The notes below the pieces were generated by a model that worked only from the letters and a program-made list of their open reading frames with translations, did no database searches and was not told the origin of the DNA. DNA of 64,000 bases. Origin: Leucobacter soli (GTDB taxonomy: Bacteria > Actinomycetota > Actinomycetes > Actinomycetales > Microbacteriaceae). Of the stretch, positions 7,043 through 35,117 are shown in pieces; positions within the stretch are counted from its first letter, which is position 1; the number at the start of each line of letters is the position of its first letter. Position numbers and translations under genes: made by a program. The stretch lies in contig NZ_CAJVAP010000014.1 of NCBI RefSeq assembly GCF_910593785.1, forward strand, positions 1 through 64,000. The letters are read 5' to 3'.

Positions 7043-7106
7043 GGGTCGGCATCGGCCGACCCGCGCTCAGCCGGTGAGAGCCCAGCCGGCCAACACTCGG
7101 CCGGCT
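7043..7106 (-). terminator. Pair of GC hairpins downstream of sufU
   Basis: Two neighbouring stems, GGGTCGG/CCGACCC (7043-7062) and AGCCGGCC/GGCCGGCT (7084-7106), follow the sufU stop on the minus strand. There is no clear U-tract, so the terminator role is inferred from position. Confidence 0.4.
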
Positions 7107-7117
7107 TGCACGGACTG

Positions 7118-8898: not shown

Positions 8899-8904
8899 GT
8901 CACC

Positions 8905-8910
8905 ATTCTT
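8905..8910 (-). promoter_or_regulatory. -10 hexamer of leaderless sufS transcript
   Basis: Minus-strand AAGAAT, 6 nt before ATG 8898. Confidence 0.45.
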
Positions 8911-8972
8911 CCACTCGAAGGGGTCATCGGCAGCAACGCGCGGAGCCGCGCGACTATTCCGGGGTGCGCCGG

Positions 8973-14951: not shown

Positions 14952-16043
14952 ATGAGACGCGTCGTCATCCTGGGCTCCACCGGTTCGATCGGCGAGCAGG
15001 CGCTCGACGTGATCCGGGCGAACCCGGCCAGGTTCGAGATCGTCGGCCTCGCCGCGGGCACGCAGGCCGCGCGGGTCGCCGAGCAGGCGGCGGAGTTCGA
15101 CGTCGAGCACACCGCGCTCGGCGCGGAGGAGGCTGCGGCGCTCGTGCGGGACGTCGAAGCCGACGTCGTGCTGAACGGCATCACCGGCTCGATCGGCCTC
15201 GGCCCGACGCTCGCCGCGCTGCAGGCCGGACGCACGCTCGCCCTCGCCAACAAGGAATCGCTGATCGTCGGCGGTGCGCTCGTGACCAGGATCGCGAAGC
15301 CCGGGCAGATCGTGCCCGTCGACAGCGAGCACTCGGCGATCGCCCAGGCGCTGCGATCCGGCACCGCGGGCGAAGTGCGGCGCCTCGTGCTGACGGCGAG
15401 CGGGGGTCCGTTCCGGGGACGCTCGCGGGAGGAACTGCGCGTCGTCACGCCGGCGCAGGCGCTCGCGCACCCGACGTGGGACATGGGGCGTGTCGTCACG
15501 ACGAACTCGGCGACGCTCGTGAACAAGGGGCTCGAGGTGATCGAAGCGCATCTGCTCTTCGACGTGCCCTACGCCGACATCGAGGTGGTCGTCCACCCGC
15601 AGTCGGTCGTCCACTCCATGGTCGAGTTCACCGATGGATCCACCATCGCCCAGGCCTCGCCACCGGACATGCGGTTGCCGATCTCGCTCGGTCTCGACTG
15701 GCCGAACCGGGTGGCCGGGGTCGGCGCTCCGCTCGACTGGACGCGCGCGACGAGCTGGGAGTTCGAGCCGCTCGACGCCGAGGCGTTCCCGGCCGTCGAG
15801 CTCGCGAAGCAGGTCGGCCGCGCCGGCCGCACCTACCCGGCGGTGTTCAACGCCGCGAACGAAGAAGCGGTCGACGCGTTCCACGACGGGCGGATCGGCT
15901 TCCTCGACATCGTCGACACCGTCCGCGAGACCGTCGAGGCGCACGAGGCGCCCGATGAGCTGACGCTCGAGTTGCTGGCCGCGGCCGAGACGTGGGCCCG
16001 CGAAGCGGCCGGCCGGATCATCGAGGCGCGCTCGGACCGGTAG
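14952..16043 (+). CDS. dxr: 1-deoxy-D-xylulose-5-phosphate reductoisomerase Dxr/IspC
   Basis: A 363-residue NADPH-dependent enzyme that makes MEP, the committed step of the non-mevalonate isoprenoid pathway. It shows the Rossmann motif [28 protein letters not shown], the catalytic [24 protein letters not shown], and HPTWDMG with [19 protein letters not shown] 14952 is chosen over two upstream in-frame ATGs because CAGAAT lies 7 nt before it. It overlaps the convergent GntR gene by 26 bp. Its usual neighbours rseP and ispG lie about 19 kb away. Confidence 0.96.
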
Positions 16044-16758
16044 CGAGGAAGCCGCGCAGCAGCGCCTCGGTGCCCGCGATGTGCTCGGCCATCGCCTCCG
16101 CCGCGGCATCCGGGCGCCCGCTCAGGATCGCGCGAGCGATGGCCTCGTGCTGCTCCCGCGAGTTCGAGAGGTTGGGCGGCAGCATCGGGATGCAGTCGAG
16201 CGCCGCATTGACCCGCGTGCGCAGATCGGCGACGGCCTGCACGAGGCTCGGCGACCCCGAGAGCTCGGCGAAGGTCAGATGCAGGCGCGAGTCGAGCCGG
16301 CGGAAGCCGGCCTCATCCGCCGCTGCGCACTCGTGGAGCGCGGTGACGAGGCCGGCGCGCTCGCCCGCGGTCAGATCCTGCCCCGCGGCCTCGCGCACAG
16401 CCCCGACCTCGAGCACCCGCCGCAGCGTCGAGATGTCATCGAGCTCGCGCGCGGTGAGCGGCGCAGAGGAGGGCGCGCCGGGGGCCGCTTGTGGCAGTTC
16501 GCTGGCGACGAAGGTGCCGCCGCTGCGGCCGCGCCGTGTCGAGACGTAGCCCGCCTCGGCGAGCGTCGACAGCGCCTCGCGCACCGTCGCCCGGCTGACG
16601 CCGAGCATGGAGGCGAGGTCGCGCTCGGCGGGCAGCCGTTCGCCGGGGCCGATCAGCCCGAGGTGCACGGTCTGCAGCAGCCGCTGCACCGTCTGCTCGT
16701 ACGGGTTGGCGGATCGCACGGTGCGCGTGAGGAACGCGACGCTCTCGTCAGACGGCAT
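16018..16758 (-). CDS. FadR-type GntR-family regulator
   Basis: A 246-residue protein with an N-terminal winged helix-turn-helix (residues about 15-75: [50 protein letters not shown]) and an all-helical FCD ligand-binding domain ([15 protein letters not shown]...[14 protein letters not shown]...). ATG 16758 is preceded by GGAGGAAGG. It is last in the minus-strand set SDR-ALDH-PuuD-GS and probably regulates it. A perfect 20-bp palindrome lies 28 bp upstream. Its 3' end overlaps dxr, which suggests a tight junction at this edge of the island. Confidence 0.88.
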
Positions 16759-16786
16759 TGAAGTCCTTCCTCCTCTGCGATTGAAT

Positions 16787-16806
16787 ACTCGCATCCTGAT
16801 GCGAGT
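16787..16806. promoter_or_regulatory. Perfect 20-bp palindrome between SDR and GntR genes
   Basis: ACTCGCATCCTGATGCGAGT has 9-bp arms around CT. The lack of a U-tract and the position just upstream of a GntR gene favour an operator, probably for autoregulation. A short transcription stop after the SDR gene is the alternative. Confidence 0.6.
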
Positions 16807-16810
16807 GCGC

Positions 16811-16834
16811 GGACGCTTCGACAAGCTCAGCGAC
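16811..16834. repeat. REP-like motif with GCTTCGACAAGCTCAGC
   Basis: A single copy of GCTTCGACAAGCTCAGCGACC, a partial palindrome that resembles intergenic palindromic repeats common in Micrococcales genomes. No second copy was noticed in the window. Confidence 0.4.
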
Positions 16835-16851
16835 CGCACGCGGCCCGCGGG

Positions 16852-17643
16852 TCAGAGCGGCGTGACGTACGCGCTCGAGAGGCCACCGTCGACGAGGAAC
16901 GTCGACGCGGTGATGAAGGAAGCGTCGTCGCTCGCGAGGAACGCGACCGCTGCCGCCAGCTCCTCCGGCCGGGCAAAGCGGCCGACCGGCACGTGCACGA
17001 GCCGCCGCGCTGCGCGCTCCGGATCCTTCGCGAAGAGCTCCTGCAGCAGGGGCGTGTTCACCGGCCCCGGGCAGAGGGCGTTGACGCGGATGCCCTGGCG
17101 GGCGAACTGCACGCCGAGCTCGCGAGTCATGGCGAGTACGCCGCCCTTCGAGGCAGTGTACGAGATCTGCGAGGTGGCCGAGCCCATTACCGCGACGAAC
17201 GAGGCCGTGTTGATGATGGATCCGCTGCCCTGCTTCGTCATGTGGCGCAGTGCCGCGCGCGAGCACAGGTAGACGCTCTTCAAATTGACATCTTGCACCT
17301 TCTGCCAGGCCGGCAGCTCGGTCGTCTCGATGGAGTCGTCGTCGTCGGGGGAGATGCCGGCGTTGTTGAACGCGATGTCGACCGAGCCGAATTCGCGAGC
17401 CGCCGTGTCGAAGAGGTGATTCACCTGGTCTTCGTCGGTGACGTTCACCTGCACGAACAGGCCGCCGACCTCGGCTGCCGCGGCTTCGCCGGCTTCGGGG
17501 TTCATATCGCCGATCACGATTCTCGCGCCCTCGGCGCGCATGCGCTTCGCGGTAGCGAGGCCGATGCCGCTGGCGCCGCCGGTGATGACGGCGACCTTGC
17601 CGGCGAGGCGCTGGGTCAGATCGATGGGGGTGATGTCTGTCAT
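16852..17643 (-). CDS. Short-chain dehydrogenase/reductase
   Basis: A 263-residue NAD(P)-dependent classical SDR. The cofactor motif is TGGASGIGLA (about 18-27), with NNAG, an active-site Ser, and YTASK (Tyr/Lys). An acidic residue after the second strand (VIGDMN) favours NAD+. It probably oxidises an alcohol intermediate before the aldehyde dehydrogenase encoded directly upstream (gap 12 bp). ATG 17643 is chosen because AAGGA lies 8 nt before it, whereas ATG 17652 has no room for a binding site. The substrate is inferred from context only. Confidence 0.88.
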   Translation of the reverse strand: MTDITPIDLTQRLAGKVAVITGGASGIGLATAKRMRAEGARIVIGDMNPEAGEAAAAEVGGLFVQVNVTDEDQVNHLFDTAAREFGSVDIAFNNAGISPDDDDSIETTELPAWQKVQDVNLKSVYLCSRAALRHMTKQGSGSIINTASFVAVMGSATSQISYTASKGGVLAMTRELGVQFARQGIRVNALCPGPVNTPLLQELFAKDPERAARRLVHVPVGRFARPEELAAAVAFLASDDASFITASTFLVDGGLSSAYVTPL

Positions 17644-17655
17644 TGTCTGCATTCC

Positions 17656-19011
17656 TTACTCGTGAGAAAAAAAGACGTTCTTGGTCTCGGTGAAGTGCTC
17701 GGCTGCGTCGGGGCCCAGCTCGCGGCCGAGGCCCGACTGCTTGAAGCCGCCAAAGGGGGTCGAGTAGCGCACTGAGGAGTGCGAGTTCACCGAGAGGTTG
17801 CCGCCCTCGACTGCACGGGCGACGCGGATGCCGCGGCCGAGGTCGCGGGTCCAGATCGAGCCGCTCAGGCCGTACTCGGTGTCGTTCGCGAGCCGGATCG
17901 CGTCGGCCTCGTCGTCGAACGGCAGCACGGCGACGACCGGCCCGAAGATCTCCTCGGTGGCGAGCCGCGAGCCGCGCTCGGGTGTCACGACGGTCGGTGC
18001 GAACCAGGCTCCGGGGCCGTCGGGGCAGCTGCCCCGGAACGCCACGGGTGTCGATTCGTCGAAAAACGATGCGACGCTCTCACGGTGGGCGAGGGTGACG
18101 AGCGGGCCGACCTCGGTGTCTTCGCGCGTCGGATCGCCCACCCTCACGTTCTTGACGGCCTGCTCGAAGCTCTCCATGAAGCGGTCGTACGCACTGCGTT
18201 GCACGAGCAGGCGGCTGCGCGCGCAGCAGTCCTGCCCGGCGTTGTCGAAGACCGAGTAGGGTGCCGTGGCCGCGGCCTTTTCGATGTCGGCATCGGCGAA
18301 GACAACGTTGGCGCTCTTGCCGCCGAGCTCGAGGGTGACACGCTTCACCTGTTCGGCGCAGCCAGCCATGATCCGCTTGCCGACCACTGTCGAGCCGGTG
18401 AACACGACCTTGCGCACCAGGGGGTTCGTCACGAAGCGCTCGCCGACCACCGAACCGCGGCCGGGTAGTACCTGGAAGAGGCCTTCCGGCAGGCCGGCCT
18501 CGAGTGCGAGTTCGCCGAGGCGGATGCTGGTGAGCGGCGTCCACTCGGCCGGCTTCAGCACGACCGCGTTGCCCGCGGCCAGCGCGGGGGCGAAGCCCCA
18601 CGAGGCGATGGTCATGGGGAAGTTCCACGGTGTGATCACGCCGACGACGCCGAGCGGTTCGTGGAAGGTCACGTCCATGCCGCCGGCGACCGGGATCTGC
18701 TGCCCGATCAGTCGCTCGGGTGAGGCCGAGTAGTACTCGAGCACGTCGCGTACGTGCCCCGCCTCCCAGCGCGACTGCGTGATCGGATGCCCGGAGTTCG
18801 CGGTCTCGAGTGCGGCCAGGCGCTCGACGTCGCCGTCGACGGCCGCCGCGAAGCGGCGCAGCGCACGGGCGCGGTCGGCGGGGGCGAAGGTCGCCCATTC
18901 GCCCTGGGCCTTCGCAGCCACGGCGATCGCCGCGTCGGTCGCGCCCGCATCGAGGTGCGCGACCTCTTCGACGACGCTCTCGTCGGCCGGGTTGACGACG
19001 GTGTAGTTCAT
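17656..19011 (-). CDS. NAD-dependent aldehyde dehydrogenase (PuuC-like context)
   Basis: A 451-residue ALDH. VVGVITPWNFPMTIASW is the cofactor-binding segment, ELGGKSANVVFADAD carries the general-base Glu, and NAGQDCCARSRL holds the catalytic Cys with an adjacent Cys. EEIFGPVVAV and GGFKQSGLGRELG close the domain. It is slightly shorter than the usual 475-490 residues at the N-terminus. It overlaps the PuuD-like gene by 4 bp. In this operon it should oxidise a gamma-glutamylated aldehyde to the acid, as PuuC does in putrescine degradation. That assignment is inference. Confidence 0.9.
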   Translation of the reverse strand: MNYTVVNPADESVVEEVAHLDAGATDAAIAVAAKAQGEWATFAPADRARALRRFAAAVDGDVERLAALETANSGHPITQSRWEAGHVRDVLEYYSASPERLIGQQIPVAGGMDVTFHEPLGVVGVITPWNFPMTIASWGFAPALAAGNAVVLKPAEWTPLTSIRLGELALEAGLPEGLFQVLPGRGSVVGERFVTNPLVRKVVFTGSTVVGKRIMAGCAEQVKRVTLELGGKSANVVFADADIEKAAATAPYSVFDNAGQDCCARSRLLVQRSAYDRFMESFEQAVKNVRVGDPTREDTEVGPLVTLAHRESVASFFDESTPVAFRGSCPDGPGAWFAPTVVTPERGSRLATEEIFGPVVAVLPFDDEADAIRLANDTEYGLSGSIWTRDLGRGIRVARAVEGGNLSVNSHSSVRYSTPFGGFKQSGLGRELGPDAAEHFTETKNVFFSHE

Positions 19012-19781
19012 GCTTCTTCCTTCTTCCGATCTCTGGCGGCCTTGGCAGCCTCGACCAGGCCGGCGAACAGCCGCCGATCCTGCGCATGCTCCTCCGGGTG
19101 CCACTGCACCGCCACACCGAACGGCACGTTGCCGTAGTGAGCAGGATCGAGCTCGAGCGATTCGATGACGCCGTCGGCTGTGCGGCTGGTCACGGTGAGG
19201 CCGTCGGCGACCTCGCCGATGGCCTGGTGATGGTAGAGATGGGCCGTGGCGCGGCGCTCGTCGCCCAGCACCTCGGCGATCCGGCTGCCCTCGTCGACCT
19301 CGACCTCGATCGGGTTGAAGACGCCGCCGCCGAGCTGGTAGCGCTCGTCGCCGACGACGTCGGGCAGATGCTGGATCAGCGTGCCGCCGAGGGCGACGTT
19401 CAGCAGCTGCGCGCCCCGGCAGATGCCGAGGAACGGCAGCTCGGCGTCGATCGCCGCGCGCAGCAGCGCGTCTTCGAAGGCGTCGCGATCCTCTCGCGGG
19501 GTGGCCGTCTTCTCGTGCGCCGTCTCGCCGTAGCGGCGCGGATCGATATCGGCCCCGCCCGAGAGGATCAGGCCGTCGAGTGATGCGGCGATGCGGCGCG
19601 CGACGATGTCGTCGGCCGGTTGGGGCGGCAGTACGATCACGATGCCGCCGGCGTCGGTCACCGCGTCGAGGTACACCTTCGGCAGGAAGGACGCACGCAC
19701 GTCCCACACTCCCGTCTGCGCCTGCTCGAGGTAGCTGGTGATGCCGATGAGGGGCGCGCCGCTGTTCTCAGAGCCGTTCAA
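19008..19781 (-). CDS. Class I glutamine amidotransferase-like hydrolase (PuuD family)
   Basis: A peptidase C26 protein of about 257 residues. The nucleophile elbow is FLGICRGAQLLNVALGG, and the His-Glu of the triad are in VQWHPEEH. It opens with PLIGITSYLEQ as PuuD-type gamma-glutamyl-GABA hydrolases do. It should release glutamate from a gamma-glutamylated acid. No ATG or GTG fits, so TTG 19781 is proposed, overlapping the glutamine-synthetase-like gene by 14 bp; an upstream start inside that gene cannot be ruled out. Confidence 0.85.
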   Translation of the reverse strand: MNGSENSGAPLIGITSYLEQAQTGVWDVRASFLPKVYLDAVTDAGGIVIVLPPQPADDIVARRIAASLDGLILSGGADIDPRRYGETAHEKTATPREDRDAFEDALLRAAIDAELPFLGICRGAQLLNVALGGTLIQHLPDVVGDERYQLGGGVFNPIEVEVDEGSRIAEVLGDERRATAHLYHHQAIGEVADGLTVTSRTADGVIESLELDPAHYGNVPFGVAVQWHPEEHAQDRRLFAGLVEAAKAARDRKKEEA

Positions 19782-21138
19782 AGCCGCGCACCCGCTCCCA
19801 GTCGGTGACCACCGCGTCGAAGGCCCGCACCTCGGTACGGGCTGCGTGCACATAGTGCTCGACGACCTCGTCGCCGAAGACCTCGTGCGCCAGAGCCGAT
19901 CCCTCGAAGAGATCGGCCGCGTCGCGCAGCGTGGTGGGCACCCGCTCGACGTCGCTCTCGTAGGCGTTGCCGTTGAGCGGTTCGCCGAGCTCGAGCTCGT
20001 GCTCGATGCCGTGCAGGCCCGACGCCAGCATGCCCGCGACGGCGAGGTACTGGTTCACGTCGCCGCCGGGTACCCGGTTCTCGACGCGCATGCCGTGGCC
20101 GCGGCCGACCACGCGCAGTGCGCAACTGCGGTTGTCGTGCCCCCAGGCCACGGCCGTCGGTGCGAAGCTGCCGTCGACGAAGCGCTTGTACGAGTTGATG
20201 TTCGGTGCGTAGAGCAGCGTGAACTCGCGCATCGCGGCGAGCTGCCCGGCGAGGTAGTGGCGGAACACCTTCGACATTCCGTCAGGGGCGGAGGAGTCGG
20301 CGAACACCGGGTCGCCGGCGCTGTTGCGCAGGCTCGAGTGCACATGGCAGCTGTTGCCCTCGCGCTCGTTGAATTTCGCCATGAAGGTGAGGCTCTTGCC
20401 ATGCGCCTCGGCGATCTCCTTCGACCCGCTCTTATAGATCGAGTGATTGTCACAAGTCGGAATCGCATGCGCATAGCGGAACGCAATCTCTTGCTGGCCG
20501 AGATTGCACTCACCCTTGACGCCTTCGCAGTACATGCCGGCGCCGTCCATGCTGTTGCGAATGTCGCGCAGTAGCGGTTCCAGTCGCGTCGATCCCTGCA
20601 GGGCGTAGTCGGTGTTGTAGTCGCTGGCCGGGGTGAGGTTGCGGTAGCCGCTGCGCCACGCGCTGCGGTAGTCATCGTCGAAGACGATGAACTCGAGCTC
20701 GGTGCCAACGTAGGGGATGAGATCGTGCTCGGCGAGGCGGTCGACCTGGTGCTGCAAAATCGCCCGGGGCGACACGGGGATCGGCGTGTGATCGGCGGCG
20801 GTCGTGAGGTCGGCGATGACGAGCGCGGTGCCGGGCAGCCAGGGCGTGCGGCGCAGGGTGCCGAGATCCGGGATCATCGCCATGTCTCCGTAGCCGCGCT
20901 CCCAGCTGGTGAGGGCGTAGCCGGGCACCGTGTTGAGCTCGACGTCGACGGCGAGCAGGTAGTTGCAGCATTCCGCGCCGTGTTCCATGACGTCTTCGAC
21001 GAAGAGTCTCGCCGAGACTCGCTTGCCGGCAAGGCGCCCCTGCATGTCGGTGAAGGCGACGATCACCGTGTCGATCTCGCCCGCGGCTACGGCACTGCGC
21101 AGGTCTTCCGGTGTCAGGTTTCCGCTGCTTGGCTTCAT
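19768..21138 (-). CDS. Glutamine-synthetase-like gamma-glutamyl-amine ligase (PuuA/GlnA3/GlnA4/IpuC type)
   Basis: A 456-residue GS-fold enzyme. The N-terminal beta-grasp carries TVIVAFTDMQGRLAGKRV. The metal and substrate segment is GTELEFIVFDDDY, CEGVKGECNLGQQEIAFRYA follows, and the phosphate-binding region is FNEREGNSCHVHSSL and RVVGRGHGMRVENRVPGGDVNQYLAVAGML. It lacks the typical adenylylation-site region of GlnA1. Its operon partners place it among ligases that glutamylate amines rather than ammonia. ATG 21138 has GAGGAGGATC upstream. Candidate acceptors are polyamines, ethanolamine or alkylamines; the sequence does not decide. Confidence 0.88.
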   Translation of the reverse strand: MKPSSGNLTPEDLRSAVAAGEIDTVIVAFTDMQGRLAGKRVSARLFVEDVMEHGAECCNYLLAVDVELNTVPGYALTSWERGYGDMAMIPDLGTLRRTPWLPGTALVIADLTTAADHTPIPVSPRAILQHQVDRLAEHDLIPYVGTELEFIVFDDDYRSAWRSGYRNLTPASDYNTDYALQGSTRLEPLLRDIRNSMDGAGMYCEGVKGECNLGQQEIAFRYAHAIPTCDNHSIYKSGSKEIAEAHGKSLTFMAKFNEREGNSCHVHSSLRNSAGDPVFADSSAPDGMSKVFRHYLAGQLAAMREFTLLYAPNINSYKRFVDGSFAPTAVAWGHDNRSCALRVVGRGHGMRVENRVPGGDVNQYLAVAGMLASGLHGIEHELELGEPLNGNAYESDVERVPTTLRDAADLFEGSALAHEVFGDEVVEHYVHAARTEVRAFDAVVTDWERVRGFERL

Positions 21139-21422
21139 GATCCTCCTCGGCGTTGAGGCCTCGATGTGCACTGTGACTAATGGTCTGGTTGTAGACCTTA
21201 TCGGAAGATCTGTCGAAGATGAAGCCGCAGGGGGTTTCTGAATTGATTTTGCAGAAACTTCAAATGAGAGACTCAAAAAGGTCTGTTTCAAAACCATTAC
21301 GCGGTCTCGATGTGCACTCTGGGAGCTCTCTGGACGAGAGCGCAGAGGTGTGTTGACAGGAGTTCTGCACCTCAGTATGCTTCGACTTACTGCAAAATTC
21401 AGTGAAGAATGAGGTGTATTCA
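21139..21422. promoter_or_regulatory. AT-richer divergent control region of the catabolic island
   Basis: The stretch has a 12-bp direct repeat TCGATGTGCACT at 21161-21172 and 21307-21318. It also has a distant 9-bp inverted pair ATTTTGCAG (21246-21254) and CTGCAAAAT (21390-21398), and TTCAGTGAAG twice around 21398-21428. It drives the gamma-glutamyl genes leftwards and the monooxygenase-ABC genes rightwards, so these repeats are likely binding sites for the two island regulators. Confidence 0.6.
21353..21381 (+). promoter_or_regulatory. Consensus sigma70-type promoter of the plus-strand island operon
   Basis: TTGACA (21353-21358), a 17-nt spacer and TATGCT (21376-21381), about 40 bp before the monooxygenase start. 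This is the best -35/-10 pair seen in the window. Confidence 0.75.
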
Positions 21423-22553
21423 GTGAAGCACGTTGAAATCGCCGGTGCAGGCCTTGCAGGCTTGACCGCCGCATCCGCGTTTGCCAAGGCAGGGTGGAGC
21501 GTACGAGTTCACGAAAAGGGCTCGGAGCTTCGGGAGATCGGCGCCGGCATCTTCCTCTGGGAGAACGGGTTGCGCGCGCTCGAGGAGATCGGCGCCTACG
21601 ACAAGGTCGTCGAGACCGGCGAGTGGGTCGAAGAGCCGTTCCTGCGGGATCACCGCGGCCAGACCCTCCAGGAGGAATGGATGCGGAATGAGCGGCTGGT
21701 CACCGTCGCCCGGAGGCACCTGCACCGTGCGCTGGTCGAGAATGCTCAAGATCTCGGAGTGGAGATTCTCACCGACTCGCCCATCATTCGGGCGCTGCCC
21801 AACGGCACGTTGATCGGTGCGGACGGCACCTACTACAAGGCTGATCTTGCGATCGGCGCCGACGGCGTGTTCTCGAAGGTGCGCGATTCGCTCGGGCTGC
21901 GCGTGTCTCTGCGTGATCTGCGCGACGGCGGTGGCAGGCACATGATCGCCCGCACGGTCGACGACCCCGTGAATTCGACCATCGAGCAGTGGAACGGCGG
22001 CCGTCGCATCGGCATCGTTCCCTGCGCGCCCGATCAGACCTACATCTTCCTCTGCTGCCCGGCAGACGATGAGGCCGGCCGCAATCAGACCCCGTTCAGG
22101 CCGGACAGCTGGCTCGAATCGTTCCCCGAGTTCCGCTCGCAGCTCGAGCGCATCTCGCCCGAGACGGAGGGGCGTTGGGCACCGTTCTACGACGTCACCG
22201 TGAAGTCATGGCGCTCAGGCCGCACCGTGGTGATCGGGGACGCCGCGCACGGCATGTCGCCGAACCTCGGGCAGGCCGCCTGCGTCGCGATGACGAATGC
22301 CGTGCAGCTCGCGATCTCCGCGACTCGCACGCGAAACCTCGATTTCGCGCTGCGCAGTTGGGAGGGGAAGATGCGGCCGATCAGCGATCGCATGCAGAAG
22401 TACTCGCGGGTCTACGGTCGCGTCGGTACGCACTGGCCGTCGCCGTTGCTCGACGTGCGTTCGTCGCTCGTGAAGCGCTTCACCAAGTCTCGGCGCGTGC
22501 AGGGCGCGATCAACTTCGCCGCCGAGAACTACCCGGGTGGTCATCTCGCGTAG
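21423..22553 (+). CDS. FAD-dependent monooxygenase (salicylate-hydroxylase/UbiH-like)
   Basis: A 376-residue single-component flavoprotein hydroxylase. The FAD-binding Rossmann motif is VEIAGAGLAGLTAASAFAKAGW with a following acidic end (VHEKGSELREIGAG). The DG motif is ADLAIGADGVFSKVR and the ribityl-binding GD motif is VVIGDAAHGMSPNLGQAACVAM. It should hydroxylate or oxidise a small, probably ring-containing substrate with NAD(P)H and O2. GTG 21423 is chosen because GAGGTG lies 6-8 nt before it; GTG 21402 lacks a site. It is first in the plus-strand operon. Confidence 0.87.
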   Translation: MKHVEIAGAGLAGLTAASAFAKAGWSVRVHEKGSELREIGAGIFLWENGLRALEEIGAYDKVVETGEWVEEPFLRDHRGQTLQEEWMRNERLVTVARRHLHRALVENAQDLGVEILTDSPIIRALPNGTLIGADGTYYKADLAIGADGVFSKVRDSLGLRVSLRDLRDGGGRHMIARTVDDPVNSTIEQWNGGRRIGIVPCAPDQTYIFLCCPADDEAGRNQTPFRPDSWLESFPEFRSQLERISPETEGRWAPFYDVTVKSWRSGRTVVIGDAAHGMSPNLGQAACVAMTNAVQLAISATRTRNLDFALRSWEGKMRPISDRMQKYSRVYGRVGTHWPSPLLDVRSSLVKRFTKSRRVQGAINFAAENYPGGHLA

Positions 22554-22611
22554 CGTCAGGCCCGATTAGACAATGAAGTCACCATCACCTTTCAGAGAAG
22601 AGAGAGCCAGT

Positions 22612-23775
22612 ATGAAGAACATCATCAAGGCACTGGGGCTTACCGCCGCAGTGCTGCTGACCGTGAGCGCCTGCTCGGGCGGGTCCGAGCAGGTCACCGA
22701 AGACGTCGACCCGAAGGCGGACGGTGCGGCCTGGACCATTCCGGCGCTGTTCACCGATTGCACGGCGTCGGATGTCGACCCGGCCGGCTGCGTCGGCCCC
22801 GCCGAGGAGCTCGACTACACGAGCCTCTCCCGCGATGAGGTGACGAAGGCGTGGGCCCTGTGCGCCGCACTGCCGCATCTCAAGGATTCGATCTGGATCG
22901 CCAGCAACTACGGGCTGGTCTCGCAGGCCGAACGACTCGATGTGAACCTGTCGGTTGTCGAGGCAGGCGGCTACGAGAATCTGGCCGAACAGGTCTCGCA
23001 GATCGAGGACTGCGTGAGCTCCGGTGCCGACGCCATTCTCGTCGGCGCAGTGAGCTACGACTCGATCAACCCGGCGCTCGAGCAGGCCCGGGCGCAGGGG
23101 GTCAAGGTGATCGACTACGGCAACGGTGTCTCGACCCCCGATGTCGACGGCCGCGTTGTGGTCGACTACCGCGACATGGGGACCATGATCGGGCAGCATC
23201 TCGCCGGGCTCGGCGAAGATCTCACGGTCGCTGTGTTCCCCGGCCCTGCTGGCGTCGGCTGGTCGGAGCGTTCGCTGTCGGGCTTCGAGGATGCCGTTGC
23301 GGGTAGCGGTGTCGAGGTCGCTGATGTGAAGTACGGCGACACCGGACGCGAGGTGCAGTTGAAGCTGGTCGAGGATGCGCTTGCAGCGAACCCCGATCTC
23401 GATGCGCTGGTCGGCAATGCGCCGATGCTCGAGGCCGCCGCATCGGTGCTCGCCGAGCAGGGCAAGTCCGACCAGGTGCGCCTCTACGGCACCTACACCA
23501 CCCCCGAGACCATGGCACTGATCGAGGCCGGCCGCGCCGGCTGCGGCTCGGTCGAGCCGACGGTGCTCAGCGGTCAGTTCGGCGTCGACATGGCCGTTCG
23601 CGTGCTCGAGGGCAAGAATTCCCCGCAGGCCGATGCGCGAATCTCGCCGGTTCCGCTCGTGCTCTGCGGCCCGGCAGAGGGAGATTCGAACAATCTCGAT
23701 GGATTCGACAAGCAGACGACCTTCGCGCCTGACGGTTGGCAGCCCGAATCGGTCGTGAAGTCGACGAGGTCGTGA
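22612..23775 (+). CDS. TorT-like periplasmic-binding lipoprotein of an ABC importer
   Basis: A 387-residue type I periplasmic-binding-fold protein. The lipobox at LTVSAC anchors it to the outer face of the membrane. The core reads ALCAALPHLKDSIWIASNYGLVSQAERL...VVEAGGYENLAEQVSQIEDCVSSGADAILVGAVS, which is much closer to TorT (the TMAO sensor partner of TorS) than to ribose-binding proteins. No TorS kinase is present. Adjacent RbsA- and RbsC-type genes indicate that here it feeds a transporter. The ligand is unknown. ATG 22612 follows a GAGAGAG stretch. Confidence 0.83.
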   Translation: MKNIIKALGLTAAVLLTVSACSGGSEQVTEDVDPKADGAAWTIPALFTDCTASDVDPAGCVGPAEELDYTSLSRDEVTKAWALCAALPHLKDSIWIASNYGLVSQAERLDVNLSVVEAGGYENLAEQVSQIEDCVSSGADAILVGAVSYDSINPALEQARAQGVKVIDYGNGVSTPDVDGRVVVDYRDMGTMIGQHLAGLGEDLTVAVFPGPAGVGWSERSLSGFEDAVAGSGVEVADVKYGDTGREVQLKLVEDALAANPDLDALVGNAPMLEAAASVLAEQGKSDQVRLYGTYTTPETMALIEAGRAGCGSVEPTVLSGQFGVDMAVRVLEGKNSPQADARISPVPLVLCGPAEGDSNNLDGFDKQTTFAPDGWQPESVVKSTRS

Positions 23776-23777
23776 CC

Positions 23778-25415
23778 ATGAGCCGCTCCGAGTTCGTCCT
23801 TCGAGGGAATATCAGCACCCAAGCCTCATACGGGATGGTGCAAGCTGTTCATGTGCGCGATGGCAGGATCGTCGAGCTAGGGAACCAGCGGCTGGCAGAC
23901 GAACTGATCGGGGGCGGGATCGAAGCGATCTCCGTCCCCGATCGGGGCGTCGCGCTTCCGGCGCTCATCGACGCCCACGTGCACCTGAGCCACTACGCCG
24001 TCGGCTCCGACCGCGGGGTGGATTGCCGGGTGCCGATCTGCACGGGCATCTCAGATGTGATCGATCGGCTGCGCGAGCGGGCATCGATCACGCCTCCCGG
24101 GGAGTGGGTCATCGGCTACGGCAACCTCTTCCTCGATCAGAAGCTGGCTGAGCGCAGATACCCGACCCGCCAAGAGCTCGATCGCGCCTCGAGCGAGCAT
24201 CCCATCGTGCTTCACGGCGGCGGTCATGTCTCGCTGCTCAATACGAAAGCGCTCGAGCTCATCGATGTGAAGCGGTTCATGGGCCCCGGCCAGGGGCTCT
24301 GGGGTGCCCCGATCGTCGAACTCGACGAGCACGGCGAGCCGACTGGCTACGTCGCCGAGATCGATGCGCATCTCTCGATTCCCGAGCCGTCGGTCGCGCA
24401 GATCGCCGAAAGCGTCACGGGGCGATTCCGCTCCGAGATGCTCAGTCGCGGTGTCGTGACCGTCGGCGAGATGCTCGAGAAGGAAGACCAGTTGCAGGCG
24501 CTCGAGCGCGTCGCCGCCGACGACGGCTATGGCGGTCGCATCGCCATGTACGTGATGAGCCCCAGTTTCCGCTCGCTCGAGCAGAGCTTCGAGTGGATCG
24601 GAGGCTATGCGGGCCGGGACGATCTCCTCTGGGCGCAGGGTGTCAAGCTCTTCGCCGACGGCGGCTATTCCGCGCGAAACGCTGCGAGCTTGCAGGAGTA
24701 CGCGCCCGAGCAGGTCGGCCGCACGCATTACCGCGGCATCCTGAACAAGAGTCGGGCTGAACTCATGCGCGCCTTCGAGCTCTCCGATGAGCACGGCGTG
24801 CAACTCGCGATTCATACGAACGGAACCCGAGCTCAGGCAGAGGTGCTGCAGGCGCTGATCGCGTTCGGCAAGAAGCTCGACGTGCGCATCGAGCACCTCG
24901 GCAACGTGCTCGAGGATCCGAGCTTCCTCGACCAGTGGAAGCGTGCTGGCGTCACCCCGGTGATGCAGCCGGGATTCCTCGGCAACTTCATCGGCGACTA
25001 CGTGCCGATGCTGTTTCCTGGCCACGGCATGCAGGGCAGAATGCCGATGCGCACGATTCTCGACGCGGCGATCTCGCCTGTCATCTGCTCGGACATCGGC
25101 CTGGGCGCCGACGTCGGCTCGACGAACCCGTGGCACACGATCGCCGCGGCGGTGAACCGGAAGAGCTTCTGGGGTCTGCACGTCGAACCGCACGAGGCGA
25201 TCAGCGTCGAGGAGGCCGTGCTCGCGCACACCGCGACGGCAGCGGCATCGATCGGTCGAGGCCATGACCTCGGCACGCTCGAGCCCGGCAAGATCGCCGA
25301 TATCGCAGTGCTCGAGACCGACCCGTTCAGCGTAGACACGGCGAAGCTGCCTGAGGTGCGGGCCGAGCGCGTGTTTCGCGGCGGTGAAGTGGTGTTCGAG
25401 CAGGGGCGGTCATGA
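23778..25415 (+). CDS. Amidohydrolase, YtcJ/NfdA-type (Amidohydro_3)
   Basis: A 545-residue metal-dependent hydrolase. The metal motif HxH is in LIDAHVHLSHYA. Later ligands are suggested by GVKLFADGGYSARNA, LAIHTNGTRAQ, RIEHLGN and the catalytic Asp in ISPVICSDIGLGADVG, followed by GKIADIAVL. The family includes N-substituted formamide deformylase. It probably hydrolyses an amide or formamide after uptake. ATG 23778 starts 2 bp after the binding-protein stop, and the gene overlaps the ABC ATPase by 4 bp, so it belongs to the import operon. Confidence 0.87.
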   Translation: MSRSEFVLRGNISTQASYGMVQAVHVRDGRIVELGNQRLADELIGGGIEAISVPDRGVALPALIDAHVHLSHYAVGSDRGVDCRVPICTGISDVIDRLRERASITPPGEWVIGYGNLFLDQKLAERRYPTRQELDRASSEHPIVLHGGGHVSLLNTKALELIDVKRFMGPGQGLWGAPIVELDEHGEPTGYVAEIDAHLSIPEPSVAQIAESVTGRFRSEMLSRGVVTVGEMLEKEDQLQALERVAADDGYGGRIAMYVMSPSFRSLEQSFEWIGGYAGRDDLLWAQGVKLFADGGYSARNAASLQEYAPEQVGRTHYRGILNKSRAELMRAFELSDEHGVQLAIHTNGTRAQAEVLQALIAFGKKLDVRIEHLGNVLEDPSFLDQWKRAGVTPVMQPGFLGNFIGDYVPMLFPGHGMQGRMPMRTILDAAISPVICSDIGLGADVGSTNPWHTIAAAVNRKSFWGLHVEPHEAISVEEAVLAHTATAAASIGRGHDLGTLEPGKIADIAVLETDPFSVDTAKLPEVRAERVFRGGEVVFEQGRS

Positions 25416-26893
25416 CCCTGCTCGAGGTGCGGAACCTCTCGAAGCAGTTCGGGTCGATCACCGCGCTCGCCGATGTCTCGCTTTCGGTGGAGGCGGGCCA
25501 GGTGCACGCCGTCATGGGGGAGAACGGCGCGGGCAAGTCGACGCTGATCAAGGCGCTCAGCGGCATTCAGCCCGCGTCGAGCGGTAGCGTCAGCATGCGC
25601 GGCGAGGTGATCGCCATCGAGAGCCTCGCCGATGCCGCTGCTCACGGCATTCGAACGGTCTTCCAAGAGCTCCACATCGTGCCGCAGCTCAGTGTCGCGG
25701 AGAACATCCTGCTCGGTGCGCTGCCGAGGCGCCGGGGGTTGATCGACCGCTCCGAGCGCGATCGGGTGGCGGTCGAGGTGCTCGCCCAACTCGGTGTCGA
25801 TCTCGACCCCGGCCGGCCGGCGGGTAAGCTCTCCCGATCCGAGCAGCAGATCATCGAGATCTGCCGGGCGTTGCTCGGCCGGGTCGATCTGCTGATCCTC
25901 GACGAGCCGACGGCGTCGCTGGGCGAGCCAGAGACGCGGCAACTGCTCGATATCGTGAGGCGGCTCACCGAACGCGGGGTCGGTGTGATCTATGTGAGTC
26001 ACCGGATGAACGAGGTGCTCGAGATCGCAGACAAGATCACGGTGCTCCGCGACGGCAATTACATCGCCACGCACGATGCTCCCGTGTCTGCCGACCGCCT
26101 GGTGCACGACATGATCGGCCGCGCGCCGGGCGAACTGTACCTGCATGAGCCGGTCGAGCCAGGAGAGGTGCTGCTCGATGTGAAGCACCTGTCGAACTCG
26201 AGCGTGCACGACGCGACGTTCAACGTTCGAGCCGGTGAGATCGTCGGCGTCACGGGGCTGATCGGTTCGGGGAAGTCAGAGATCGCGCGCGCGATCTACG
26301 GGCTCGACCCGGTCGAATCCGGAGAGGTGCGAATCGGCGGAGCGAACTGCCTCGGTTGGTCGCCCGCCCGGATGTTGAAACAGGGGCTCATGTACTACCC
26401 CTCTGATCGCAAGCGCGAGGGGCTGGCGCTGAACCGGCCGCTCCGCGAGTCGATCACGCTCGGCGCACTGAAACGGGGCGGGTTTCTCGCCGGTGGCCTG
26501 ATCCGCGCCAAGCAGGAGGCCGCCGAGACCGAGCAGCTCGCTGAGCGACTCTCGCTGCGACCGAGCACCACTGCGGCCCCGGCAGGCAACTACTCCGGTG
26601 GCAACCAGCAGAAGGCACTCATCGCCCGCGGTATGATCCACCGTGCCGACGTGCACGTCTTCGACGAGCCGACCGTCGGCATCGACGTCGGCGCCAAGGC
26701 AGACGTCTACGCGCAGATCGATGCGTATGCGCGGGCCGGCGCCGGGGTGCTCCTCGTCTCATCGGATCTCACTGAGGTCATCGGTGTGAGCGACCGCGTG
26801 TACGTCGTGGCCGAGGGGCGCATTCAAGCCGAGCTGATCGGCGACGACATCAACGAGGCGGCCATCGCCTCCCACTTTTTCACCGAATCCTGA
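25412..26893 (+). CDS. Sugar-type ABC importer ATPase (RbsA/MglA family, two ATPase domains)
   Basis: A 493-residue fused ABC protein. Domain 1 has Walker A GENGAGKSTL (about 36), a degenerate signature LSRSEQQ and Walker B LLILDEPTASL. Domain 2 has a variant P-loop GLIGSGKSEI, a canonical-like signature YSGGNQQK and VFDEPTVGIDVGAK. The asymmetry is usual in this family. It energises uptake by the permease and TorT-like binding protein encoded alongside. It overlaps the amidohydrolase by ATGA and the next gene starts shortly after. Confidence 0.93.
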   Translation: MTLLEVRNLSKQFGSITALADVSLSVEAGQVHAVMGENGAGKSTLIKALSGIQPASSGSVSMRGEVIAIESLADAAAHGIRTVFQELHIVPQLSVAENILLGALPRRRGLIDRSERDRVAVEVLAQLGVDLDPGRPAGKLSRSEQQIIEICRALLGRVDLLILDEPTASLGEPETRQLLDIVRRLTERGVGVIYVSHRMNEVLEIADKITVLRDGNYIATHDAPVSADRLVHDMIGRAPGELYLHEPVEPGEVLLDVKHLSNSSVHDATFNVRAGEIVGVTGLIGSGKSEIARAIYGLDPVESGEVRIGGANCLGWSPARMLKQGLMYYPSDRKREGLALNRPLRESITLGALKRGGFLAGGLIRAKQEAAETEQLAERLSLRPSTTAAPAGNYSGGNQQKALIARGMIHRADVHVFDEPTVGIDVGAKADVYAQIDAYARAGAGVLLVSSDLTEVIGVSDRVYVVAEGRIQAELIGDDINEAAIASHFFTES

Positions 26894-26910
26894 TGACACG
26901 GAGATCTGAC

Positions 26911-27897
26911 ATGTCGCTGACGACACGCCCGTTGACCATTCCACGGAGCACGCGCCGGTTCCTGGCCGCACTGACGACCTACCTGCTGCCGATCCTCTTC
27001 GTCGGGCTCGTGGTCACCTTCGCCATCCTCGAACCGAGATTTCTCGACCCGACCAACCTCACCAACGTCTCGCGGCAGTCGGTGTTCCTGCTGCTCATCG
27101 CGCTCGGTCAGATGATCGTGCTGATCAACGCTCAGCTCGATCTCTCGGTGGGTGCGACGGTCGCGTTCACGAGTGTGATCGTGGCCACCTTCACTTCCTC
27201 GGTGGGTGAGGGCGGTTGGTCCATCGTGATCGGCGTGCTCGTCGCGCTCGCCGCGGGCCTCGTGATCGGCCTCGTGAACGGAGCGATCGTTTCGTTCTGG
27301 AAGGTACCGTCGTTCATGGCCACCTTGGGCACGACGTCGATCCTGACCGGTTCGGCGCTGCTGATCACCAAGGGGGCACCCGTGACCGGCGTGCCTTTCT
27401 CGTTCCGAGATGTGTTCGGCACCGGCAATGTGTTCGGCATCCCCACCCCCGTCATCGTCGGCATCGGGGTGCTGCTGCTCGTCATGTTGTTCATGAATCG
27501 TGTGCCGACGGGCCGGAACATGTATGCGATCGGCGGCAATGCCGAGGCGGCCCGGGTCGCGGGCATCAACGTGCGTCGCACGGTGATCGTCGCATTCGTG
27601 CTCTGCTCGGTGTTCGCGGCGCTTGCGGGGATGCTCCTCACCGCTCGCCTGGGTTCGGGCGAGGCGTCGCTCGGCGGCAGCTACGTGATGCTCTCCATCG
27701 CGGCCGCGGTGCTCGGTGGTACTTCGCTTTTCGGCGGCGAAGGCGTCGCCTGGCGCGTGCTGCTCGGCGTGCTCTTCATGGGGGTCCTCGGCAATGGCAT
27801 GAACCTGTTGCACATATCGAGTTACGTGCAAGAGATCGTGATAGGTTGTGTGCTGGTGATGGCCGTCGGCTTGGAGCGGCTTCGCGAGAAATTGTGA
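26911..27897 (+). CDS. Sugar-type ABC importer permease (RbsC family)
   Basis: A 328-residue permease with about 8-10 membrane helices. The family motifs ALGQMIVLINAQLDLSVGATVAF, KVPSFMATLGTTSILTGSALLI, GRNMYAIGGNAEAARVAGINV and AAAVLGGTSLFGGEG match RbsC/XylH-type proteins. It has a single permease gene, so it probably acts as a homodimer. ATG 26911 is chosen over ATG 26893 because GGAG lies 8 nt before it and the alternative overlaps the previous stop without a site. Confidence 0.92.
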   Translation: MSLTTRPLTIPRSTRRFLAALTTYLLPILFVGLVVTFAILEPRFLDPTNLTNVSRQSVFLLLIALGQMIVLINAQLDLSVGATVAFTSVIVATFTSSVGEGGWSIVIGVLVALAAGLVIGLVNGAIVSFWKVPSFMATLGTTSILTGSALLITKGAPVTGVPFSFRDVFGTGNVFGIPTPVIVGIGVLLLVMLFMNRVPTGRNMYAIGGNAEAARVAGINVRRTVIVAFVLCSVFAALAGMLLTARLGSGEASLGGSYVMLSIAAAVLGGTSLFGGEGVAWRVLLGVLFMGVLGNGMNLLHISSYVQEIVIGCVLVMAVGLERLREKL

Positions 27898-27954
27898 GGT
27901 TTCCGACCCGATGTTCGTACGTCGGCTGATGCGGAAGCGACTCCGGGAAGAGAT

Positions 27955-28485
27955 ATGAAGGTAGACGGCAGCCGGATCCGCGAATTGCGGCAGAAATCCG
28001 GGCGCACTCTGCAAGTGCTCTCCGAAGACGCAGCGATCTCTCCGAGCTTCCTGTCGCAGGTCGAGCGGGGGCTCTCGGAGCCGTCGCTCGACTCGGCGTT
28101 CCGCATCGCCGGCTCATTGAACGTGCCGGTGAAGGCGATCGCGCTCGATGAAGACGAGCGCGATCGGGATCAGCCGGTGAGCTACGGCGGCATGTATCGG
28201 GATCGCTTTGTGACCCCGGACACCGCGGAGACGTTGCAGGTGCTCGAATCGGTGCTCGAACCGGGCCCGCAGGTGCGCATGCACGCCTATGCGCACCCTG
28301 AGAACGAGGAGTTCATCTTCGTGATCGACGGCGTGCTCGAGATCACGGTCGGGGAGCAGGTGCATCGGATCCGCGCGGGCGACTCGCTGCTCATCGACCC
28401 GAGAATCCGCCACTCCTACGCGAACCCGGGCAGCACGCCCGTGCGATGGCTGTGGGTGTCGGCGAAGTCGCCTCGCGTGGGCTAG
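27955..28485 (+). CDS. XRE-family regulator with cupin domain (PuuR-like)
   Basis: A 176-residue protein with an N-terminal XRE helix-turn-helix (IRELRQKSGRTLQVLSEDAAISPSFLSQVERGLSEPSLDSAFRIA) and a C-terminal cupin_2 barrel (MHAYAHPENEEFIFVIDGVLEITVGEQVHRIRAGDSLLIDPRIRHSYANPG). PuuR, the repressor of E. coli putrescine utilisation, has the same layout. As the last gene of the import operon it is the natural candidate for control of the divergent promoters at 21.1-21.4 kb. Its TAG stop is part of the TAGACT hexamer that probably starts the glycine riboswitch transcript. Confidence 0.9.
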   Translation: MKVDGSRIRELRQKSGRTLQVLSEDAAISPSFLSQVERGLSEPSLDSAFRIAGSLNVPVKAIALDEDERDRDQPVSYGGMYRDRFVTPDTAETLQVLESVLEPGPQVRMHAYAHPENEEFIFVIDGVLEITVGEQVHRIRAGDSLLIDPRIRHSYANPGSTPVRWLWVSAKSPRVG

Positions 28486-28488
28486 ACT
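28483..28488 (+). promoter_or_regulatory. -10 hexamer of the gcv operon
   Basis: TAGACT, just before the riboswitch; its first three bases are the stop codon of the XRE gene. Confidence 0.55.
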
Positions 28489-28514
28489 GACGCACAACAC
28501 AACTGAACAAGCCC

Positions 28515-28728
28515 CCTCACCCTTGCGGGAGAGACCGCGCGCCGCATCGCGGCGGCAGCCGGCGCCGTAGGAGCAAACCCTCCCCGGGAAACTCTCAGGC
28601 ACACGTACCGCAACGGCCGCACCCACCCGGGTGCAGGGCGACTCTGGAAAGCAGCGGGCTCGCCCGCTCACCGAAGGTGCAAGGGCATACGCCGCCCGAA
28701 TCTCTCAGGTCACGTACAGAGCGGGGAG
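28515..28728 (+). promoter_or_regulatory. Tandem glycine riboswitch
   Basis: Two aptamers in series. Aptamer 1 has GCGGGAGAGACCGCGC (from 28525), CGCCGTAGGAGCAAACC, GGGAAACTCTCAGGCACA. Aptamer 2 has ACTCTGGAAAGC, CACCGAAGGTGCAAGG, AATCTCTCAGGTCACGTACAGAG. CTCTG and CAGAG close the last P1 helix. These are the conserved cores of the gcvT-class tandem glycine riboswitch. It lies 48 nt before gcvP and should turn on glycine cleavage when glycine is plentiful. Confidence 0.92.
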
Positions 28729-28774
28729 GATCCTCTCAATCGGTCGTTCGCGACCACGACACCGGAGATCCTCC
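28725..28774 (+). promoter_or_regulatory. Probable translational expression platform of the riboswitch
   Basis: GGAGGATC (28725-28732), right after aptamer 2, is fully complementary to GATCCTCC (28767-28774). The latter runs from the ribosome binding site (GGAG 28764-28767) to the base before the TTG start. Pairing would hide the start region, and glycine binding could release it. No U-tract is seen, which argues for control of translation rather than termination. Confidence 0.55.
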
Positions 28775-28775
28775 T

Positions 28776-31763: not shown

Positions 31764-31766
31764 ACC

Positions 31767-32966: not shown

Positions 32967-33119
32967 GCGCAGCGCGCACCCGCCTCGCCGAGACCGATTG
33001 AAACCGGTCGCGCGATGGACGAGGATCGCAGCAGAGGCTCCGACGATCCGAAGCATCCCGGCAACCCCGAACCGACCGCATTGCGCCGCAACGCGACACC
33101 AGCACCAGAAGGAGACATC

Positions 33120-33500
33120 ATGAGCACAGTACGAGCGGGACTCCGCTACTCGGCCGAGCACGAGTGGATCGCCGACGGCAGTCCGACCGTTGTCGGCGTG
33201 AGCGAGGTCGCAGCCGACGCGCTCGGCGAAGTCGTCTACATCGAGCTGCCCGAAGTCGGCGCGCGCGTCACCGCGGGCGAGGTCTGCGGTGAGATCGAGT
33301 CGACCAAGTCCGTGTCCGAACTGTTCTCGCCGGTGACCGGCGAGGTGGTCGAGGTGAACGAGGCGCTCGCCGACGACCCGGCTCTCGTCAACAGCGACCC
33401 GTACGGGGCGGCCTGGCTGTTCCGCGTGGCGGTCGAGGCCGAGGGGCCGCTGCTCTCCGCCGAGGAGTACGCGGCGGCCAACGACGCCACGGTGGAATAG
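33120..33500 (+). CDS. gcvH: Glycine cleavage H-protein
   Basis: A 126-residue lipoyl carrier that shuttles the aminomethyl group between P-, T- and L-proteins. The lipoylation site is Lys63 in [23 protein letters not shown], preceded by the conserved [14 protein letters not shown] 33120 has an AGAAGGAG site; the frame is open for 35 codons upstream but that part is not conserved. The 153-bp gap after gcvT may hold a secondary promoter. No lipoamide dehydrogenase gene is nearby. Confidence 0.96.
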
Positions 33501-33586
33501 GCGCAGCGGAATAGGCGCCGTGGAGTAGGCTCCGACGCGCGGCGACCGTCGCCTCGATACGGTCGCGCGACACCGCCGCTTCCGGA

Positions 33587-33649
33587 GCGCAGGTGCTCAG
33601 TAATCCGGGGTCGAGCGGCTGCATACCCACGACTACTGAGCACCTGCGC
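33587..33649. repeat. 16-bp perfect inverted repeat between gcvH and sdaA
   Basis: Arms GCGCAGGTGCTCAGTA (33587-33602) and TACTGAGCACCTGCGC (33634-33649) around 31 nt. There is no U-tract, so it may be a mobile palindrome or an RNA-stability hairpin rather than a simple terminator. Confidence 0.75.
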
Positions 33650-33704
33650 GGCGCGCGAGCGCGAGCGCGAACACGAACACGATCAGTCGGCAAGGGGGCC
33701 ATTC

Positions 33705-35117
<1,413 letters not shown>

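Follow-up and report, generated by a model that had tools for sequence, protein, structure and literature searches.

Two gene modules around one control region in Leucobacter soli: a probable GlnA4-type ethanolamine operon and a separate cassette, probably for an N-heteroaromatic compound

We asked whether two divergent gene sets of Leucobacter soli, which face each other across a single spacer, form one catabolic pathway or two modules. They lie in a window of 64,000 nucleotides, the whole stretch analysed, which is part of contig 14 (NZ_CAJVAP010000014.1) of a 2.87-Mb assembly in 67 contigs. The left arm (16018-21138, minus strand) encodes a glutamine synthetase (GS)-like ligase, a PuuD-type hydrolase, an aldehyde dehydrogenase (ALDH), a short-chain dehydrogenase/reductase (SDR) and a GntR regulator, and the right arm (21423-28485, plus strand) has six genes, for a FAD monooxygenase (FMO), a binding protein, an amidohydrolase, a CUT2 ATPase, a CUT2 permease and an XRE-cupin protein. 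All eleven genes were intact and in the reported order, with no internal stop in the frames checked across both arms, and these frames, together with matches to NCBIfam and Pfam-type models, confirmed the places and families given in a preliminary description of the locus. That description had also read the two arms as one conserved island or pathway of ten genes; a neighbourhood comparison found each arm without the other, and we rejected the single conserved island, the arms occurring independently across the compared loci. We consider it probable that the locus holds two modules, an ethanolamine-to-glycine operon of a known type and a separate cassette for the import and ring opening of an N-heteroaromatic compound, inserted where relatives keep a permease. 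The left arm is of a known kind; its juxtaposition with the right arm is new. Within the genus, a sample of 54 genomes was used; G numbers label compared genomes and L numbers compared loci or stretches.

The left arm and the glnA4 ethanolamine cluster

Features of the left arm, with one neighbour outside both arms:
16018..16758, minus strand: GntR/FCD regulator, last left-arm gene (PF07729 FCD, 76 bits; PF00392 GntR, 67 bits)
16852..17652, minus strand: SDR (NF004713, PRK06057, 497.9 bits, above the cut-off of 404)
17656..~19011 (start codon approximate), minus strand: ALDH (PF00171, 513 bits)
19008..~19781 (TTG start placed by eye), minus strand: class-I glutamine amidotransferase (GATase)/Peptidase_C26 protein, PuuD-type (PF07722, 202 bits)
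19768..21138, minus strand: GS-like protein, GlnA4-type gamma-glutamyl-amine ligase (PF00120, 336 bits)
28516..28729, plus strand: tandem glycine riboswitch, outside both arms (two RF00504 matches, 53.5 and 55.5 bits)

The GS-like protein stayed under the cut-off on all four NCBIfam models that it matched (score and cut-off: type III GS, 232 and 470; GlnA, 229 and 429; gamma-glutamyl-putrescine synthetase, 198 and 650; PRK09469, 103 and 845). Its flap reads GSFAP, while two other GS of the same genome (L001 and L002) keep the glutamate (GYEAP and GDEAP); the GSFAP flap was common to the window, L042, G674, Embleya and Arthrobacter sp. U41, in a comparison of eleven rows from which one, the mistranslated L060, was left out. 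Judged by this flap residue, an activity of the enzyme on ammonia only is disfavoured.

According to the accessible parts of Krysenko et al. (2019, PMC6529630) and of a review that repeats the proposed products (PMC9397018), GlnA4 of Streptomyces coelicolor forms gamma-glutamyl-ethanolamide in vitro, is required for growth on ethanolamine and, in a model, carries F331 where E327 would be; the gene list of its cluster comprises an SDR, an ALDH, a regulator, a permease and a glutamine amidotransferase, the gene for the glnA4 repressor EpuRI lies upstream in the opposite orientation, and glycine and glutamate are the proposed products. As far as that text describes the S. coelicolor cluster (SCO1611-1615), it and the window share a phenylalanine for Glu327, an SDR, an ALDH, a glutamine amidotransferase, an adjacent repressor gene and glycine and glutamate as predicted products, whereas the window differs in its order (GS-GATase-ALDH-SDR-GntR) and in adjoining a glycine-riboswitch gcvP-gcvT-gcvH-sdaA operon. 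In Embleya (Streptomycetaceae), whose homologue is 65% identical to the GS-like ligase and sits among the same genes, GATase, permease and a GntR-like regulator homologue occupy one strand and GS, ALDH and SDR the other; the content is that published for Streptomyces, and the regulator is divergent. The content of the left arm matches that of the Streptomyces glnA4 cluster, as given in the accessible text (PMC6529630). A gene set of this make-up has thus been described before, with an SDR where PuuB would stand, and the earlier claim that the combination was undescribed is not supported for this arm. Two other proposals gained support, namely gamma-glutamylation and an amino-alcohol substrate handled by an SDR instead of a PuuB-type oxidase.

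By analogy with that cluster (PMC6529630), we propose the SDR as a gamma-glutamyl-ethanolamide alcohol dehydrogenase (counterpart of SCO1611), the ALDH as a gamma-glutamyl-aminoacetaldehyde dehydrogenase (SCO1612) and the GATase as a gamma-glutamyl-glycine hydrolase (SCO1615). The GlnA4-type ligase would cap ethanolamine with glutamate, the SDR and ALDH would oxidise the capped alcohol to gamma-glutamyl-glycine, the PuuD-type hydrolase would free glutamate and glycine, and the glycine would enter the adjacent riboswitch-led operon for glycine cleavage and serine dehydration. The SDR was 89-97% identical across 17 genus loci, and the GntR/FCD gene was kept together with the left arm across the genus; no cut-off was exceeded by the best 25 of 42 NCBIfam matches of the ALDH or by the best 25 of 31 of the GntR/FCD regulator.

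The logic of glutamyl capping, oxidation and hydrolysis is shared with the Puu pathway of E. coli for putrescine, from which the window differs in that no PuuB-type gamma-glutamyl-amine oxidase is found among the eleven genes, an SDR standing in that place, and in that the putrescine-ligase, PuuC and PuuD models all fell far short of their cut-offs (98 bits on the PuuD model for the GATase, cut-off 266). A Puu-type pathway was rejected on these model scores. The Eut (EutBC) pathway was also rejected, EutB ethanolamine ammonia-lyase not being found in the window's own genome with a search that detected the E. coli control.

In the genus, the left-arm GS was present in 27 of the 54 genomes (E 1e-180) and an ethanolamine-type permease in 23 (E 1e-100); all 23 also had the GS, and none of the 27 GS-less genomes had the permease (Fisher p 3e-11, kinship not corrected for). 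The permease lay less than 400 bp from the GS in 19 of the 23, and the GS occurred without it in G000, G002, G070 and G072. Its best NCBIfam model was the ethanolamine permease TIGR00908 (327.5 bits, cut-off 381.75), and the name ethanolamine permease is likely, not certain. The window contains no permease of this kind, and the accessible part of PMC6529630 describes S. coelicolor as likewise without it, so that the permease is not essential to a GlnA4-type cluster.

Of 26 other genus loci, 25 had all five left-arm genes and the remaining one is a contig of 4.5 kb; gcvP lay on the same stretch in 18 of the 26. In the window, the gcvP-gcvT-gcvH-sdaA operon (28516-35117), behind the tandem glycine riboswitch, offers a glycine-to-pyruvate route adjoining the left-arm locus; gcvP and sdaA exceeded their model cut-offs, and gcvT and gcvH were named from sequence. 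Among seven other loci scanned, glycine riboswitch aptamers were also present in L042, L043, L044, L046 and L088 and not in L104 and L084. Glycine as the product of the left arm fits this neighbouring operon, to which it may be functionally linked.

That the left arm acts on a different amine, such as another amino alcohol or a short alkylamine, seems quite unlikely to us. The four NCBIfam models matched by its GS describe ammonia or putrescine ligases, all of them under cut-off, and GS-like ligases are generally promiscuous, which would suit such a substrate; set against this are the co-occurring and adjoining ethanolamine-type permease, the adjoining glycine cleavage genes and a gene set that is that of the glnA4 cluster. 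With ethanolamine as the predicted substrate, the GlnA4 route would be extended to another actinobacterial genus, where it would come with a well-defined operator-like site, a permease as partner and a direct link in the genome to the glycine cleavage genes.

Two further arrangements of the left arm were seen. In the permease-less G070 and G072 (L103 and L104), four genes stand before the GS in its own orientation. They encode a flavin monooxygenase of the LLM class, an SDR, a class II aldolase and a protein without NCBIfam match, taken by eye for a substrate-binding protein, and this module is possibly another front end for the glutamylation arm. On a plasmid of Arthrobacter sp. U41 that was typed as conjugative (L097), the left-arm GS, GATase, ALDH and SDR are preceded by an amidase gene and an inositol-monophosphatase-like gene, with a choline-kinase-like gene nearby.

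The right-arm cassette, its carriers and the extra segment

Features of the right arm and the segment that contains it:
21423..22553, plus strand: MHPCO-like FMO (closest solved structures are MHPCO)
22573..23775, plus strand: TorT-like CUT2 substrate-binding lipoprotein (NF008185, 270 bits, above the cut-off of 200)
23778..25415, plus strand: Amidohydro_3 (YtcJ/NfdA-type) hydrolase, metal-ligand positions conserved (PF07969, 203 bits)
25412..26893, plus strand: CUT2 ABC importer ATPase (RbsA/AraG-type models; AraG 484 bits, below the cut-off of 689)
26893..27897, plus strand: CUT2 ABC importer permease (PF02653, 117.5 bits)
27955..28485, plus strand: XRE-cupin regulator, last right-arm gene (PF01381, PF07883)
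21202..28480, no strand: segment missing in the relative G002 (the alignment of the flanks stops at 21201 and resumes at 28481)

Plasmids of three rhodococci (Rhodococcus pyridinivorans P23, R. rhodochrous BAA870 and Rhodococcus sp. PD04) and of Arthrobacter crystallopoietes DSM 20117 carry the six genes in the window's order, as does Microbacterium sp. Root53 (L036); these complete copies are L036, L091, L092, L096 and L102. The order also recurs in L075 of G674, where contig ends cut the first and last genes. Another R. rhodochrous plasmid matched on FMO, binding protein and amidohydrolase, and Sinorhizobium NGR234 carries five cassette genes in a different order, FMO, hydrolase and CUT2 genes among them. 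The surroundings vary: on three Rhodococcus plasmids the next gene after the cassette is annotated as succinate semialdehyde dehydrogenase (SSADH), that of P23 matching the SSADH model best, below its cut-off (531 of 646), and the Root53 cassette adjoins a type III GS (over cut-off) and an ammonium transporter gene (named from sequence).

Either arm was seen alone. Scanning seven right-arm stretches with the left-arm proteins found the left arm in none, the matches being limited to a 28% identical GS (L036), a 27% identical SDR (NGR234) and the SSADH-like genes, and the cassette was found in none of the 26 other left-arm loci of the genus, two of which (L057 and L110) have only ABC and permease genes with 34-40% identity. 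G674 has both arms, on separate contigs, and a permease with its left arm.

At E 1e-60 the amidohydrolase was found in 2 of the 54 genus genomes; the match in G008 (L064, 43-44% identical) stands in another context. With up to four first-look candidates scored per genome, the binding protein (E 1e-70) was found in 3 of 398 genomes of the family, namely the window's own, G674 (the cassette) and G807, and the FMO in 1 of 396 genomes of the order (E 1e-80) and 3 of 396 of the phylum (E 1e-60), the other two being about 40% identical. The 20-kb stretch of G807 showed a transporter and an aldehyde dehydrogenase and no FMO or amidohydrolase match, and phage records searched with the Root53 FMO gave no match at E 1e-20. 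Among the open-licence papers that our literature searches listed, we recognised none that describes the cassette, which as a gene set is apparently undescribed.

In G002 the left arm and the riboswitch leader are 43 bp apart, compared with 7,279 bp in the window (21202-28480). The GC content of this extra segment was 0.63-0.67 in 1-kb windows, as against 0.66-0.73 in the left flank and 0.68-0.72 in the right, and none of the 20 direct repeat families and 25 inverted pairs listed for 21100-28900 gave clear mobile-element ends. We infer from these comparisons an insertion of the cassette at the permease gene or a replacement of that gene by it. We regard the extra segment as a clear example of cassette capture beside an existing control region.

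The shared control region

Features of the spacer between the GS and FMO genes:
21178..21201, no strand: operator-like palindrome 1, GS side (matrix score 29.5 bits)
21276..21299, no strand: operator-like palindrome 2, right-arm side (30.6 bits, the window's top score)
21353..21381, plus strand: sigma-70-like promoter of the right arm (TTGACA, 17 bp, TATGCT; found by eye)

A matrix for a 24-bp palindrome, with the window excluded, was built on 31 sites contributed by 26 of the 27 loci offered, and its consensus was a TAATGGTC-N8-GACCATTA-like site. The 64 kb contained exactly two strong operator-like sites, at 21178 and 21276, and the next best scored 5.6 bits; ten random 64-kb sequences gave at most 12.5 bits and 5000 spacer-like sequences at most 21.4, none reaching 30.6. 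The single shared control region of the preliminary description was thus borne out by these two palindromes. Both sites are probably bound by the GntR protein, which would repress the left arm through them.

The window's sites are 98 bp apart, against 96-97 bp in L042, L043, L107 and L108, which have their second site close to the permease; among 14 permease-bearing loci scanned, four had two strong sites and two a weaker second site. In five right-arm relatives, the region before the FMO gene scored no higher than 4.1 bits for the operator. Since the spacing matches that of four permease-bearing relatives and no such site precedes the FMO of right-arm relatives, the window's second site is most likely part of the regulatory system of the left arm. 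Insertion of the right arm at the place of the permease would leave this site upstream of the right arm, and it may be a relic; 53 bp separate its end from the promoter-like sequence that the right arm has of its own, and in Root53 a comparable TTGACA-N18-TATCTT stands in front of the FMO gene. The XRE-cupin protein would be the right arm's own regulator.

The same spacer speaks for one fused pathway, in which the right arm would import an amide or heteroaromatic precursor and release an amino alcohol for the left arm: it holds two left-arm operator-like sites, one of them facing the right arm, a site that the five right-arm relatives lack, and two of the four permease-less GS genomes (G070 and G072) have another catabolic module directly upstream of the GS. 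We nevertheless regard this as rather improbable, given that the right arm stands elsewhere without the left arm (in Root53 beside the ammonium transporter and type III GS genes, in Rhodococcus beside the SSADH-like gene), that G674 keeps the arms on different contigs with a permease beside the left one, and that the second site may be the relic mentioned above. Similarly low is the probability that we give to a composite pathway from an N-heteroaromatic compound to glycine and pyruvate, in which the cassette would have replaced the permease and come under the ethanolamine repressor via the kept second operator, an amino alcohol would be released, and the left arm would serve as a general amino-alcohol back end that takes different front ends.

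A 13-bp direct repeat, CTCGATGTGCACT, occurs twice in the window on this strand (21160-21172 and 21306-21318), beside both operator-like sites of the spacer.

The right arm's flavoprotein, hydrolase and importer

The closest solved relatives of the FMO were MHPCO entries (E 2e-61), 40 orders of magnitude in E-value ahead of the next, the flavoprotein monooxygenase 3rp6 (E 4.5e-21). The FMO shared 80% identity with that of Root53 and 67-71% with the copies on Rhodococcus and Arthrobacter plasmids, and the positions aligned to R211 and Y223 of MHPCO, which we take to be substrate-binding residues, were invariant in nine of nine FMOs (alignment position counted by hand). A structure predicted from the single sequence had a mean pLDDT of 36.7 and was not used. 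The amidohydrolase motifs HxH, Lys, His, His and Asp, presumably the metal ligands, were present in six of six right-arm hydrolases. The CUT2 importer set is complete, with binding protein, double ATPase and BPD_transp_2 permease; the binding protein stayed under the cut-off of a second TorT model (201 of 310) and has a solved relative, 4yhs (E 7e-70). The XRE-cupin protein was 59% identical in Root53.

Taken with the gene content, these likenesses indicate that the right arm probably serves the import and ring opening of an N-heteroaromatic compound. The CUT2 importer with its TorT-like binding protein would bring in a polar N-heteroaromatic, whose ring the MHPCO-like flavoprotein would hydroxylate or open, the amidohydrolase would hydrolyse the resulting amide or enamide and, in Rhodococcus, the product would pass to the succinate-semialdehyde-type dehydrogenase. 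The amidohydrolase is more likely a partner of the MHPCO-like FMO than the liberator of the left arm's amine, the role first suggested for it. A compact, plasmid-borne cassette of six genes is brought out, which probably degrades an N-heteroaromatic compound and whose Rhodococcus plasmids come from coking wastewater, sewage, sediment and soil.

MHPCO opens a pyridine ring during vitamin B6 degradation, according to the accessible part of PMC9838390. Compared with vitamin B6 degradation pathway I of Mesorhizobium loti (MHPCO followed by E-2-(acetamidomethylene)succinate, or E-2AMS, hydrolase), the right arm resembles it in an FMO closest to MHPCO, in a hydrolase for which an amide is a possible substrate and in the succinate-semialdehyde-type dehydrogenase next to the Rhodococcus copies, and differs in an amidohydrolase-superfamily hydrolase, a CUT2 importer and an XRE-cupin protein, with no upstream B6 enzyme recognised. 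A direct role of the right arm in the use of vitamin B6, or of a B6-like 3-hydroxypyridine, would agree with the proximity of the FMO to MHPCO and with the two presumed substrate-binding positions kept in all nine aligned FMOs. We judge it unlikely: an SDR-type pyridoxal 4-dehydrogenase exceeded its cut-off in none of three genomes (the window's, G674 and Root53), the other pathway enzymes not being searched for, no other B6 gene was recognised in the cassette, and the ABC ATPase reached 325 bits on a B6 transporter model with a cut-off of 670.

Two other pyridine routes resemble the cassette proposed here. The pathway for unsubstituted pyridine in Arthrobacter sp. 68b presumably shares with it flavin-dependent ring cleavage, an amidohydrolase and succinate semialdehyde dehydrogenase, and differs, as we understand it, in its two-component monooxygenase, a comparison made by description and not by sequence. 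The kpi cluster for 4-hydroxypyridine in Arthrobacter sp. IN13 also pairs a Group A flavin monooxygenase with an amidohydrolase-superfamily enzyme; in the accessible part of its description (PMC7356986), however, KpiA is closest to quinolone 3-hydroxylase, KpiC is an Amidohydro_1 protein that works as a ring-cleaving dioxygenase, and an ABC transporter does not appear.

Several points weigh against the reading of the locus as an ethanolamine operon with an N-heteroaromatic cassette. For the left arm, the Embleya homologue was used in place of S. coelicolor GlnA4 in the sequence comparison, the permease score on TIGR00908 falls short of the curated cut-off, the permease is absent at E 1e-100 from the window's own genome, and 8 of the 26 other genus loci, some of them short contigs, showed no gcvP. 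In the control region, the window was part of the alignment from which we picked the seed consensus of the matrix by eye, a choice that somewhat favours the window's sites, and 8 of the 14 permease-bearing loci have one site only above 5 bits. On the right arm, no SSADH gene follows the cassette in the window's genome, and the hydrolase of the vitamin B6 pathway, which we take to be of the alpha/beta type, is unlike the right-arm amidohydrolase. Ring opening by the FMO is not assured either, because KnmB1, a relative 45% identical to MHPCO, hydroxylates a pyridine without the MHPCO catalytic residues, as reported in the accessible part of PMC9838390.

More distant likenesses of the right arm were seen at two other places. 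L105 of G886 (1437-10343) has a diverged arrangement, with an MHPCO-like monooxygenase (39% identical), a gene resembling fumarylacetoacetase, one that by eye looks GntR-like, an amidohydrolase of a different type and CUT2-like ABC genes. Contig 11 of G000 encodes a second TorT-like binding protein (88534-89562, L077), 44% identical to that of the right arm and about 1.6 kb away from an aminobutyraldehyde-type dehydrogenase, and G807 (L076) has a similar pair together with CUT2-like ABC genes.

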